NCBI GenBank assembly: GCA_017302795.1
Contig: JAFLCB010000003.1
Coordinates: forward strand, 152,650-216,649
DNA length: 64,000 nt
Reading direction: 5' to 3'
Origin: Deltaproteobacteria bacterium
GTDB lineage: Bacteria; Bdellovibrionota; Bdellovibrionia; Bdellovibrionales; JAMPXM01
Below the pieces are notes generated by a model. It saw only the letters and a program-made list of their open reading frames with translations, searched no databases and had not been told where the DNA came from. Within the stretch, counting starts at the first letter, position 1, and each line of letters starts with the position of its first letter. A program made the translations under genes and the position numbers. Positions 47,839-53,041 of the stretch are shown one piece after another.

Positions 47839-48603
47839 TTAGTACCGGGTGAGCGTGCCGGTCGCGAAAATCACTCCGTTGTATTGGAGGTCGACATTCA
47901 TCTGATATGAGTTTCCAGGGAGTCCGTTGTTGACGATGAAGCGGAATCCACCTGGGAGGCCATTGCTTGTCGCCGGTGTACCTGTGAATCCGAGACTATT
48001 GTTTGCCGGGCCAATGTTGGCGAAAAAGCTTCGTTCTTTAGTGCCAGGAGTAGTCCAAGATCCACCCGTATTGGCTTGGTTTGGACCAGGCGCACCTGCG
48101 CCTACCCAAGCAGTAGCCTGAGTCGGCAAGGTCGCACCTGAAAGTACTCCGGGAAACTGAACTGCCAAATATCCTGCATGCGAGTAGTTATCGCAAGAGG
48201 TGTTGCCCCAGTTTACTCCGATTATGATGGGATCACATAAGCCAGAATTTTGAAGCAAAAGTTCAAACGTAGGACGACTTGTAATTCGAAGGCTTGTTAG
48301 AAAAACAGTTCCGCTTGATGAGTTCGATATCGTGCCAGGAATACAACGGCCTTCAGCTGGAACCCAGCCGAAACCGTTTTGACAGCTCTGCTGATACAAG
48401 CAGCCGTGAGTCGTCGTGTAGATTTGATTTGCTTGGCAGGTTTGAAGTGGAAGTATCGAAGTTCCGCCAGGTGGCAATGCCGTACCGTTGTTGTTTTCAG
48501 AGGCGCAACCAACTAAAATGGCTGATAGAGCAACCATCGCAAACATGCCGATGGCGAAGCCGAATTTACGCGATTCGCTTTTGTGCATTGGGACGGTCAT
48601 CAT
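47839..48603 (-). CDS. Predicted lipoprotein of unknown function
   Basis: 254 residues (ATG 48603 or 48600; AGGAGG 5-8 bases upstream). The signal ends in the lipobox LVGC (Cys about 33). The mature protein starts with a Gly/Pro/Asn-rich linker, then a Cys-rich stretch (TCQANQIYTTTHGCLYQQSCQNGFGWVPAEGRC) with pairs that may form disulphides, and then a beta-rich domain. No family recognised. Exported, probably on the outer membrane. Monocistronic with its own terminator. Confidence 0.7.
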   Translation of the reverse strand: MMTVPMHKSESRKFGFAIGMFAMVALSAILVGCASENNNGTALPPGGTSILPLQTCQANQIYTTTHGCLYQQSCQNGFGWVPAEGRCIPGTISNSSSGTVFLTSLRITSRPTFELLLQNSGLCDPIIIGVNWGNTSCDNYSHAGYLAVQFPGVLSGATLPTQATAWVGAGAPGPNQANTGGSWTTPGTKERSFFANIGPANNSLGFTGTPATSNGLPGGFRFIVNNGLPGNSYQMNVDLQYNGVIFATGTLTRY

Positions 48604-49003
48604 AAAATCCTCCTAGTTCCATGGCCCGATAATCACCAATCTGACAATCACGGTCCGTGCCGTCGCCAACTCGCAATACATGCAATTTGTTCTATTTATG
48701 TGACGACGAACGTCACTTTAACGAGGGGAGGAGCGCCGGAAATGGTCCATGGGAATCTGCAGACATCGCAAGCAGGGTGGCCAACGCTGCCACCCAAAAC
48801 ATTCGGGGAAATGAAGAACTTTTCGTCAAGTAGGAAGGGTTACTGGCCACATCTATGTATCGGTAAGAAACGTTCTTGGTTCGACATGAAACATCCCGTT
48901 GTCTCAGCCTGAGACAGGTCTAGCTCGGCTTCAGCCCAGCACTAGCCTCGCCGATAGGCTGAATGGACCTCTCAGAAGGTCGAGTTGAACGTCGGGAGGA
49001 TTC
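48604..49003. other. 400-base gap with three hairpins
   Basis: Divergent gap between the lipoprotein gene and the subtilase-PilZ gene. It holds inverted repeats GTGACG/CGTCAC (48700-48716), GGGTGGC/GCCACCC (48775-48795) and TGTCTCA/TGAGACA (48900-48916). No protein gene is supported. A structured leader or small RNA is possible but unproven. Confidence 0.45.
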
Positions 49004-50953
49004 ATGGCGGGCATTGCGGCGGGATCGAAGAGAGTGTGCTACGGCGCACGTCAAAATTCTTCGATTATGAAGCGTCAGGCTTCGGCGTATTTTGTTCTTA
49101 CCCTCGCCATAATTCTCGGTTTGAATTTGCCGTCGGCATCAGCCCAATCTACGACCCAGGAGTATGTTCCCGGCGAAATTATAGTGAAACTTAAAGGCAG
49201 TGCGAAAACCCTGAAGTCGCAGGCGTTCATTGGAAAGTCTGTTGCGGAAAAGTCGATGACGTTAAAGGGCTCGTGGTCGGGTCTTAATATGCATCACTTT
49301 AAACTCTCTTCCGATGCAGAGATGAAGCAGACGCTGAATGACTTGAAAAACGATCCAGACGTCGAATACGCCGAGCCTAATTATATTTTGCGTTCGCCGG
49401 GTAAGGCCACCGCAGAAGCCTTTATGACACTCAATGAAGCTCGCGGCACCGTCGGCGCGAACTCCTCTGTCGGAGCACTTGCGCAAACCAACGCGCCCAT
49501 TCAGCTTGCCAATGCGTGGTCGGCAACGACTTCAGGCCAAACACCGCCGATCGTTGCAGTTATCGATACCGGCGTTGATTACAATCACGAAATTTTTCTG
49601 GACTCCGGTGCGATCTGGACAAATCCAGGTGAGGTTGCAGGGAACGGAATTGATGACGACGGCAACGGTTATGTCGACGATGTTCATGGCTGGAATTTCG
49701 TTACTAATACGAACAACCCAATGGATGACGACAATCACGGAACTCACGTCGCCGGAATCGTTCTTGGTACCACTCAAGATATTTTGGCTTACCCAATGGA
49801 GCCGGCAAAAATCAGAATTATGGCCTTGAAGTTTTTAGACGCCAACGGTGTCGGTACAACTTCCGATGCAGTGAAATGCATTTACTACGCTGTTAACAAC
49901 GGCGCCCGAGTTTTAAATAACTCATGGGGCGGTGGGGGATTTTCGAACTCATTGGTCGATGCAGTTGCATTTGCATATTCGCGGCGAGTAGTCTTTGTCG
50001 CCGCGGCTGGAAATAGTTCGCTCAACAACGATCTCTCGCCAACGTACCCTGCCAGCTATTCCGTTCCTGGTGTCATTTCAGTTGCAGCTACGACAGACTC
50101 CGATGGTCTCGCGTCTTATTCAAACTATGGTGCCTCGACGGTTCACATGGGTTCGCCTGGCAGCGGAATTTGGAGCAGCCTCCCGAATCAAACTTACGGT
50201 CGATCATCGGGAACTTCGATGGCGACGCCATTTGTTTCGGGATTAGCAGCGTTGATGCTACGAGAAAACTCCGCGCTCTCTGCCTATCAAATAAAACAAC
50301 TGATTTTTTCTGGAGCTCAGCAGGTCCCAAGCTTGCTTTCAAAAACGATCACGAAGTCACGAATGAATGCTTACAACTCTGTTGTATCAGCAAAAACAAC
50401 CACCCCTGATTCAGAACAGCCATCGTTTACAGCTGCTTCGCGCGCGCCAGCAAGCGAAGAGGCGGCTGTTGGTGGCTGTGGTTTAGTCAAAGCGCTTGTT
50501 GAAGATGCGGCGGGCCCTAGCGGACCGAATCGCAATGTTGCTTTCTTTGGTTTACTATTGCTATTCGCTGCACCGATTCTGATTGCCTATAGCTTGCGGC
50601 AGAAAACAGGGAAGTCTCGACGACGCTATCCGCGCTATCAAATTGCGTCGCAAGTTAAACTCAGTGTCGGTGGGCGTGAGCTGACTGGAAATGTGAGTTC
50701 GATCTCAATGGGCGGTGTGTCGCTAGCGACCGACATGAATCCAGATTCTGCAAATCCAGAGGCTTGGCTCGAAAACGGTGGTGTCGTGTCGATGACAATC
50801 AAGAGCCCGGACGGAAAAGAAGAAATTCAGGTTGCCGGGAAAGTCGTATGGAGCGAAGAGAAGAAGCGCTTCGGTGTCGCGTTCGAGGGAGCCGACTCGA
50901 GTGTCCTCAACTCGATCGGTCGATGGACCGCAGGGCTATTGAAGGCGTCTTAG
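49004..50953 (+). CDS. Subtilisin-like (S8) protease with C-terminal membrane helix and PilZ domain
   Basis: 649 residues from ATG 49004 (GGGAGGA just upstream). A Sec signal lies at about 22-48. An I9-like propeptide (EYVPGEIIVKLKG to DVEYAEPNYIL, 53-129) is followed by the S8 domain with the full triad: Asp188 (AVIDTGVDYNH), His245 (NHGTHVAGI), Ser405 (GTSMATP), plus oxyanion Asn337 (AAAGN). A Ca-site-like DDDGNGYVDD lies at 217-226. A membrane helix (about 512-530) precedes a PilZ-like domain: R540-x3-R544 and S566-I-S-M-G-G, where the first position, usually Asp or Asn, is Ser. Topology suggests an exported protease controlled by a cytoplasmic c-di-GMP-type domain. This fusion is unusual. 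It converges on the receiver/PilZ gene with a gap of 6 bases. Confidence 0.88.
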   Translation: MAGIAAGSKRVCYGARQNSSIMKRQASAYFVLTLAIILGLNLPSASAQSTTQEYVPGEIIVKLKGSAKTLKSQAFIGKSVAEKSMTLKGSWSGLNMHHFKLSSDAEMKQTLNDLKNDPDVEYAEPNYILRSPGKATAEAFMTLNEARGTVGANSSVGALAQTNAPIQLANAWSATTSGQTPPIVAVIDTGVDYNHEIFLDSGAIWTNPGEVAGNGIDDDGNGYVDDVHGWNFVTNTNNPMDDDNHGTHVAGIVLGTTQDILAYPMEPAKIRIMALKFLDANGVGTTSDAVKCIYYAVNNGARVLNNSWGGGGFSNSLVDAVAFAYSRRVVFVAAAGNSSLNNDLSPTYPASYSVPGVISVAATTDSDGLASYSNYGASTVHMGSPGSGIWSSLPNQTYGRSSGTSMATPFVSGLAALMLRENSALSAYQIKQLIFSGAQQVPSLLSKTITKSRMNAYNSVVSAKTTTPDSEQPSFTAASRAPASEEAAVGGCGLVKALVEDAAGPSGPNRNVAFFGLLLLFAAPILIAYSLRQKTGKSRRRYPRYQIASQVKLSVGGRELTGNVSSISMGGVSLATDMNPDSANPEAWLENGGVVSMTIKSPDGKEEIQVAGKVVWSEEKKRFGVAFEGADSSVLNSIGRWTAGLLKAS

Positions 50954-50959
50954 CCAGTA

Positions 50960-53041
50960 CTAACCAGTCGACTCTTTTTTATGAACGTAATCTTCGCGAA
51001 TCCAAGTACGGATTCGCTTGTGTAGTTCATCCGAACAGCCAAAGAAAACGAAATGACATTTGTACATCGGATCATCCGCCGTCCCACCAATAGAAGCAGC
51101 GCAACGAGCAAGAACACCATCACTGATGTTGCCAAACAGCGGCGAGAAAAATCTCATGAACGAACGCGATTTAAACGGCGTCGGGTGCAAGACTGTCAAT
51201 CCGTACTCTGAAAGCTCCTCAAGCTTAACCGTTTTGCAAACCTGCGCTGTCAGTTCGCACGGTACGAATGGCGATGCATCCGGTAATACAGACCTACTAA
51301 CTTGCGGTAGAGCAACTGCAAGTTTGTCGACGAAGAGCTTTCGATCCAGCGGTTTGTACACGTAGTCTGCGATGCCTTTGTGATTGAAATCTCCGGGCTG
51401 AATTCGCGCTTCCTCGTCCGCAAGAATGAAAATCTTTGGCAGCGGTTCTGAGGGGATAATGACACGAGCCCTCGACAGTGCGCCGTGGAGTCCATCCAGC
51501 CACTCCGCCGCGGTAGATCGTATAAGGCCACCATCGATAATTAGCGCATCGAACCTATATTGATCCGGGGTCGCACCTTTGGCCACCATCCGATTGAGAT
51601 CAATCCACGCCGCCCGATCGATTTGTTTTAATTCCAGTTTTAAGGTGGCCGGAACTTCCGGACCAGAGCTTGGAATCAAGCGTCCCTTGACTTCCGCAAA
51701 CACAAAAAGCCCCTGGTTATCAACAAATCTGACACCCGTTACACCTTGGCCGCCGGTCGCGGTGTAGCTGAGAAATTCGTTGAAATCTTCGAGGTCTGAT
51801 TTTGGGACTGAATAAAACCAGTCGAGCGGGCGAGAAAGCCAATCTTCCGCCTTTTTGCCCAGAAACGTGTCGTTCGCAGAAAGTGGCGGCTCGAAACTGA
51901 CAAGCTCGTGTTCGCCCTCGGTGATGATCAAGGTGGTGCGCCCCCCGGGGATTCCGCCCTCGCTGGCCGATACTGCGTCGTCGTCATCACCTTGTGGCGC
52001 GGTCCCCCCTTGTTGACCAGAGAGTTTTGCGAGCCCCGAAAGGAAACGCGTGTAGGACGGAAAGAGAATTGCGGCAGTGCGATCGAAGTTTTCCTCAATG
52101 CAGCCCTGCGCCTGCGCCAAAATATCTCGGTCGAGATCGATGACCGCGATTCGATGTCGCGGAGGAAGTTTTTCTTTTACCTTGGAAGAATTTGACCGTC
52201 CGGTCTGCCCACGACTGCGTCCTGGCATTTGGCGATTTCGAATGAATTTACGAAGCTCTGTAAGTTGCGCGCTATTTATTCCGAAAAGCGTGAATCGGAC
52301 CAACCAGAGCCCCTCGTACTGAGGGTGGCGAACAGAAGCGTAGCAGCGCCCAAGCATTCGGCTAGTGATGATCGTGTTGCCGAAGATCGTTGAATGAATG
52401 ACGGCGAAAACACCATCCGCGAGGGGGGCCGGGTTTCGAATGCTAATTGCGAAATCCGAAATCTCGTCAATGATGGTGTCCTTGCCGATTTCGATATCAT
52501 CTTCGGCGCGCGCGCGAAACAAAAACGAAGGTGCAATGTCAGGTTTGTCGGCCAAAAGAAGCTCGACTTTTTGCAGAAGGAGCTGCTGATCAAGCGGTTT
52601 AAGTGCCATGTCGTCAATCGCGTCGTGACGAAATCGATCGGGTCGCAAGTTTGGATCGTCGTATCCAAGAACCAATGTCTTGAAACCGGTTGCATCGGCA
52701 ATGTGGCCAAGATCTCTTAGTTTCGCCAGGGTTGAAACTAGCCAGTCGAGCGGCCGACTGGTGACGGTGTCCAAGTCGACAATTAAAAGCCGAATAGGCG
52801 TTAGCTCCGCTTCAACTTCTAGCAGTTGTGCTTTTGATTTTTCGTCCTGATCATCCTCCGTTACTGCGTCGCTGTCATCGATCAGGAGGTCCCGTTGCTT
52901 CAGCACCGAGCTGTATTTTTTTTCGAACGCGGCAACACTGGTGCAGATTTCCAGGTATGGTTGATTTTCAAATAAACGAAACCACCCGCGCATTTGCGTG
53001 GCCGATCGGCTGTCGTTTGAAATCAAAACGCATTTGTGCAT
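50960..53041 (-). CDS. Tandem receiver-like / PilZ-like protein
   Basis: 693 residues without signal peptide or membrane helix. Two similar halves: a receiver-like domain (IRLLIVDLD near 84-91 and MALKPLD near 145-151), then a PilZ-like domain (about 175-275, DEISDFAISI, LGRCYASVRHP, LWLVRFTLFG); and again a receiver-like part (RIAVIDLD 297-304, ALIIDGG 499-505, YVYKPLD 560-566), then a PilZ-like domain (about 595-685, LEELSEYGLTVLHP, LARCAASIGG, CHFVFFGCS). A long insert (about 345-490) with an acidic stretch sits in the second receiver. The KPLD element repeats in both halves, so an internal duplication is likely. Role unknown; a signalling scaffold is inferred. Confidence 0.65.
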   Translation of the reverse strand: MHKCVLISNDSRSATQMRGWFRLFENQPYLEICTSVAAFEKKYSSVLKQRDLLIDDSDAVTEDDQDEKSKAQLLEVEAELTPIRLLIVDLDTVTSRPLDWLVSTLAKLRDLGHIADATGFKTLVLGYDDPNLRPDRFRHDAIDDMALKPLDQQLLLQKVELLLADKPDIAPSFLFRARAEDDIEIGKDTIIDEISDFAISIRNPAPLADGVFAVIHSTIFGNTIITSRMLGRCYASVRHPQYEGLWLVRFTLFGINSAQLTELRKFIRNRQMPGRSRGQTGRSNSSKVKEKLPPRHRIAVIDLDRDILAQAQGCIEENFDRTAAILFPSYTRFLSGLAKLSGQQGGTAPQGDDDDAVSASEGGIPGGRTTLIITEGEHELVSFEPPLSANDTFLGKKAEDWLSRPLDWFYSVPKSDLEDFNEFLSYTATGGQGVTGVRFVDNQGLFVFAEVKGRLIPSSGPEVPATLKLELKQIDRAAWIDLNRMVAKGATPDQYRFDALIIDGGLIRSTAAEWLDGLHGALSRARVIIPSEPLPKIFILADEEARIQPGDFNHKGIADYVYKPLDRKLFVDKLAVALPQVSRSVLPDASPFVPCELTAQVCKTVKLEELSEYGLTVLHPTPFKSRSFMRFFSPLFGNISDGVLARCAASIGGTADDPMYKCHFVFFGCSDELHKRIRTWIREDYVHKKESTG

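Follow-up and report, generated by a model that had tools for sequence, protein, structure and literature searches.

How a protease that acts outside the cytoplasm might be controlled by a PilZ domain lying inside it, when both are carried on one chain, is the question raised by a gene in the window, the whole 64,000-nucleotide stretch of Bdellovibrionales DNA analysed here. In predatory bacteria, c-di-GMP controls prey entry, and we know of no output for most of their PilZ receptors. The source genome (4.23 Mb, 39 contigs) encodes six GGDEF matches; hence, the c-di-GMP machinery is present.

The pairing of S8 and PilZ domains is itself already known, since the Bdellovibrio bacteriovorus HD100 protein NP_969350.1, with the same domain pairing as the protein of the source genome, was tabulated as 'Subt-PilZ' in 2008 (PMC2605481). 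The consulted portion of that paper mentions it in a single sentence and a single table row ('signalling') and says nothing of its motifs, topology, distribution or any sorting signal. In the searched literature, outside which most subscription journals lie, there is no description of a sorting-type signal in Bdellovibrionota or of a PilZ tail on it, nor of the order-wide conservation of Subt-PilZ or of the S/T substitution in its PilZ domain.

Domain organization of the Subt-PilZ protein

The features of the gene, all on the + strand, are arranged as follows (window positions, with residue numbers where given).

48994–48999, +: Shine-Dalgarno-like GGGAGG ahead of the ATG at 49004 (sequence)
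49004–50953, +: S8 subtilase–TM–PilZ protein, 649 aa (Pfam and AF2)
49004–49144, +: signal peptide with a long n-region, cut predicted after ASA47 (sequence; AF2 helix 21–41)
49133–49381, +: propeptide, PF22148 (Fervidolysin-type), aa 44–126 (Pfam, E 8.5e-12)
49547–50320, +: Peptidase S8 domain, aa 182–439 (Pfam, E 1.6e-50; fold nearest to deseasin MCP-01)
49565–49567, +: catalytic Asp188, invariant in 56/56 aligned orthologues
49736–49738, +: catalytic His245, invariant in 56/56 aligned orthologues
50216–50218, +: catalytic Ser405, invariant in 56/56 aligned orthologues
50471–50488, +: GGC492GLV signature of a sorting-type signal, Cys codon 50477–50479 (Cys 53/53, G491 51/53, G493 52/53)
50525–50605, +: membrane helix, aa 508–534, with invariant Pro524, then Arg (AF2 and alignment)
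50618–50932, +: PilZ domain, aa 539–643 (Pfam, E 4.2e-15; AF2 fold)
50621–50635, +: RxxxR motif, R540–R544 (both Arg 53/53)
50699–50716, +: second PilZ motif SISMGG, aa 566–571, with Ser at the D/N position (alignment of 53)

The start at 49004 is retained because the alternative internal ATG at 49067 has no ribosome-binding site upstream. The subtilase domain is assigned to peptidase S8 by a profile score of 172.5 bits, against a cut-off of 21.8, and by the intact D188/H245/S405 triad, and protease activity is predicted. The closest solved fold of the protease part is that of deseasin MCP-01 (3vv3), with 42% identity.

In the full-length AF2 model, for which 53 orthologues served as input, a signal-peptide helix (residues 21–41) and a confidently folded protease are followed by a disordered linker (residues ~478–507), a single confident helix of transmembrane type (residues 508–534), and a PilZ β-barrel (residues 545–627). 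The PilZ profile scores 56.4 bits against a cut-off of 22.5, and residues 505–649 modelled alone give a pLDDT of 90.4. The best PDB fold matches of this shorter model are all PilZ structures, mostly c-di-GMP-bound, and include 4xrn, 4rt0, MapZ, MotI, BcsA, VCA0042, and YcgR. This fold search was decisive; the PilZ matches of a PDB sequence search are weak (YpfA/MotI, E 6e-4). The initial annotation had read the signal peptide, propeptide, catalytic triad, single membrane helix, and C-terminal PilZ domain from the sequence, and all the residues it named are borne out. Its fusion model, which depends on a membrane-type helix and a PilZ-folded C-terminal domain, survives, both being present in the AF2 models. 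With this layout, the protease would be situated outside and the PilZ domain inside (N-out/C-in topology).

A sorting-type signal between the protease and the PilZ domain

An additional element, missed by the initial annotation, consists of an invariant Cys (GGC492GLV), a disordered Gly-rich linker, the Pro-containing helix, and Arg, in this order. The linker between the folded domains is variable, the distance from the Cys to the helix Pro ranging from 26 to 54 residues across the 53 orthologues, yet C492 is invariant, accompanied by its flanking Gly residues, and P524 of the helix is likewise invariant.

The profile of this Cys-Gly, helix, and Arg block also matches proteins unrelated to the subtilase. 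Elsewhere in the phylum, the carriers are M10 matrixins, C25 peptidases, other S8 proteins, and several unknowns; in the source genome, the block is also found on an LPMO_10-like protein (weak Pfam match, E 0.004), which has counterparts in two congeners. Among the non-orthologous matches examined at E ≤ 0.02, nearly all are located at the extreme C-terminus, L092 being the exception, and most of these proteins have an evident signal peptide. Because the block closes unrelated exported proteins, the linker, helix, and Arg have, judged from sequence, the pattern of a modular C-terminal sorting signal on exported hydrolases. The signal lies outside the coverage of the NCBIfam models scanned and is carried by surface-type hydrolases throughout the phylum; it singles out a set of probable predator surface enzymes. 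With these profiles, only one to three carriers are found per genome, and in HD100 only the subtilase-PilZ protein. The LPMO_10-like protein, the second carrier of the source genome (L191 6335–7081, − strand; region G000:C5:234361-234495), starts with HIRI after its predicted signal peptide and ends with GCG, a helix, and Arg.

A tripartite Cys-Gly motif, helix, and Arg on exported surface hydrolases also characterizes MYXO-CTERM, the signal of the myxosortase MrtX (PMC11980579), but in the Subt-PilZ protein the tail bears a PilZ domain. The invariant Cys in a Gly/Cys motif and the subsequent membrane helix are shared with MYXO-CTERM; the position at the extreme C-terminus with a short Arg-rich tail is observed in the PilZ-less relatives, but not in the Subt-PilZ protein, in which PilZ follows. 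An internal copy of the MYXO-CTERM motif is known in M. xanthus MXAN_5598 (PMC11980579). The MYXO-CTERM model TIGR03901 gives no match to the Subt-PilZ protein, and the best tail of a relative scores 17.2 against a cut-off of 20; membership in MYXO-CTERM is thus rejected. In GlyGly-CTERM/rhombosortase, the secreted serine protease VesB likewise ends in a tripartite, glycine-rich sorting signal (PMC6219818), but it has no PilZ tail and its enzyme is a rhomboid, whereas no rhomboid is tied to the Bdellovibrionota signal beyond one adjacency. At that one site, in genome G264, a subtilase copy that has the signal but no PilZ (L190 4525–7021) overlaps a convergent zinc-ribbon rhomboid gene, whose product is a possible processing enzyme and, as a single adjacency, a lead only. 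A rhomboid as the dedicated enzyme is rejected, since rhomboids occur in 16 of 16 genomes, including five reduced ones without a subtilase match at the threshold used. Neither a CPBP/Rce1-type myxosortase (PF02517) nor an exosortase (PF09721) was found in the source genome or HD100, and both are rejected as the processing enzyme.

Distribution, gain and loss of the PilZ tail

A single-sequence scan of contigs gave only four near relatives, the named ones being Bdellovibrionales or Bdellovibrionota MAGs, and the protein is full-length in nearly all of 60 relatives. In a survey of 291 genomes of the phylum at E ≤ 1e-85, a threshold that would hide weaker fusions, about 87 of the 97 genomes of the order Bdellovibrionales (counted from the table) have matches running into PilZ, as do two genomes of a sister family in the same class; outside the class, no match at this threshold extends past residue 514. 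The S8, membrane helix, and PilZ architecture, which the initial annotation proposed to look for in other genomes, is thus widespread, usually with one PilZ-tailed copy per genome, and, being kept across the order, it cannot be a chance fusion or an assembly artefact. Of the seven genomes of the order without a match, six are no larger than 2.1 Mb.

In a family outside the class (f14), the subtilases lack PilZ and have the signal, intact or degraded, as their C-terminus, and in the S8 tree, which was built by a quick method and leaves several forks open, they fall outside the clade of PilZ-tailed proteins (96% SH-aLRT). Within this clade, four PilZ-less tips, requiring separate changes, end just after the helix and Arg; L062 and L063 belong to reduced genomes, and L055 and L155 to genomes that retain a PilZ-tailed copy. 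Since the PilZ-less members of both the outgroup and the class end at the signal, the signal and PilZ are separable modules. Most simply, PilZ would have been joined to the signal once, at its cytoplasmic end, and several later losses would have left the signal and Arg behind.

The relative genome with the orthologue L048 (2454664–2456502; 43% identical over nearly full length) is taken to be that of B. bacteriovorus HD100. Interpolation via the HD100 GGDEF positions between two map anchors, dgcC (Bd1434) and cdgA (Bd3125) (PMC3271064), puts the orthologue at about Bd2547. The sole other PilZ match nearby is 24 kb away, consistent with the pair Bd2524 and Bd2545, both of which are down-regulated on leaving the attack phase (PMC2797640). 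From its genome position, the orthologue is probably Bd2545, and its expression in the attack phase is probable.

PilZ motifs and proposed control of the protease

The subtilase's PilZ domain is the top PilZ match in both the source genome and HD100. Residues R540, R544, S568, G570, and G571 are each invariant in 53/53 orthologues, so that the RxxxR motif of PilZ c-di-GMP receptors is intact. In the second receptor motif, [D/N]xSxxG, the Ser and Gly are kept, but 51 of the 53 orthologues have S/T/C in place of D/N (residue 566: S 27, T 21, C 3, D 1, N 1); most other PilZ domains of the source genome have D or N there. The Ser that the initial annotation had pointed out at this position is therefore one instance of a family-wide substitution, which makes c-di-GMP binding uncertain; it may differ from the usual mode throughout the family. 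At the same time, a ligand or partner site seems to have been retained, given that RxxxR and SxxG are invariant. Bdellovibrio also produces 3',3'-cGAMP (PMC9140294), and the conserved S/T might shift the ligand preference, for example toward this nucleotide.

As a whole, the protein is best, if tentatively, explained by a sorting-type tether whose PilZ tail gates the tethering, processing or display of the protease. The subtilase would be exported by Sec via its signal peptide, the propeptide would remove itself, and the protease would be held in the inner membrane by the MYXO-CTERM-like signal, consisting of GGCGLV, the Gly-rich linker, the Pro-containing helix, and Arg, with the helix leaving the protease outside and PilZ inside. 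The short cytoplasmic tail normal for such a signal would here be extended by PilZ, which would bind a cyclic dinucleotide, either c-di-GMP or a relative. Depending on the ligand state, the protease would then either remain tethered or undergo processing in or close to the Cys motif, and the processed protease would be displayed or released, acting in the attack phase. The placement of PilZ, as a cytoplasmic continuation of a sorting-type tether, suggests that it controls how the protease is tethered, processed or displayed, either in place of allosteric control of catalysis or in addition to it. Where or when the protease is shown may accordingly be decided by a second messenger in the cytoplasm; the fuller proposal, in which a cyclic dinucleotide on the PilZ tail gates both the processing of the signal and the arrival of the protease at the surface in the attack phase, is rather doubtful. 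Several observations stand against the gated tether: a search for a processing enzyme with PF02517 and PF09721 found none in the source genome or HD100, rhomboids are present in all genomes tested, signal carriers are few in each genome, the MYXO-CTERM model stays below its cut-off, and the D/N residue of PilZ is replaced. If true, it would constitute a one-protein link from the cyclic-dinucleotide level to an external protease in predatory bacteria, and an instance of a protein-sorting signal placed under a second messenger.

Direct catalytic allostery, nucleotide-free docking, and a signalling stub are serious rivals. In the first, proposed by the initial annotation, the protease is permanently anchored, and c-di-GMP on PilZ alters its catalysis or oligomeric state across the membrane. 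Such inside-out control by c-di-GMP is possible, has the same topology as the gated tether, and would agree with the invariance of the key residues in both domains. It has an established counterpart in LapD-LapG, in which the cytoplasmic c-di-GMP state is coupled through the inner membrane to an extracytoplasmic protease (PMC3032545, PMC3032553); however, LapD-LapG divides the task between a membrane receptor that binds c-di-GMP and a second protein, a cysteine protease, whereas Subt-PilZ combines PilZ and a serine protease in one chain. A low-confidence linker of about 30 residues and variable length parts the protease from the helix and would transmit an allosteric change poorly, so that a PilZ effect on how the protease is tethered, processed or displayed is at least as good a fit; moreover, one helix offers no obvious lever unless the protein dimerises, and the invariant Cys motif, common to unrelated proteins, is left unexplained. 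This allosteric reading is rather unlikely. Another fusion of a membrane protease to a C-terminal PilZ domain is LIC_20173 of Leptospira (PMC12943098), but its protease, PrsW, is an unrelated membrane protease; the consulted portion of that paper reports neither a subtilase nor a sorting-type signal.

Alternatively, PilZ may be a nucleotide-free module for protein docking, by which the protease is positioned at a pole, for instance, or with an envelope machine. The loss of D/N in nearly all orthologues favors this reading, but R540, R544, S568, and G571 are invariant in the 53 sequences and the nearest folds are mostly c-di-GMP-bound PilZ structures, which makes it unlikely. An ordinary membrane-anchored housekeeping protease of the envelope, with PilZ as a minor modulator, would suit the wide conservation, the usual single PilZ-tailed copy, and the mreC/mreD/mrdA/ppiD-like neighbors in several families; it is improbable given the reduced genomes, in which the protein is missing or PilZ-less, and the probable attack-phase expression of the HD100 orthologue. 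Outside-in signalling, by a TM-PilZ stub that stays in the inner membrane once the ectodomain has been lost at the Cys motif, is very improbable: a cut at this motif would produce the stub, and the myxosortase model has cleavage distal to the Cys (PMC11980579), but no conserved partner gene adjoins the subtilase across families.

A universal operon partner is rejected because the gene surroundings differ between families. In many families (loci L035–L074), the subtilase adjoins mrdA/mreD/mreC and a ppiD-like gene, and in Bdellovibrio a DUF502-like gene and mgtE, these names being derived from sequence reading. In the window, two genes flank the subtilase.

50960–53041, −: convergent neighbor, 693 aa, no Pfam or PDB match
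47839–48603, −: lipoprotein-like gene, 254 aa, no Pfam match

The two halves of the 693-aa protein resemble each other (26% over 189 aa), and each looks like a degenerate receiver domain with an additional C-terminal domain. This gene adjoins the subtilase within the genus and in G012, and the lipoprotein-like gene keeps its place upstream of the subtilase in these congeners.
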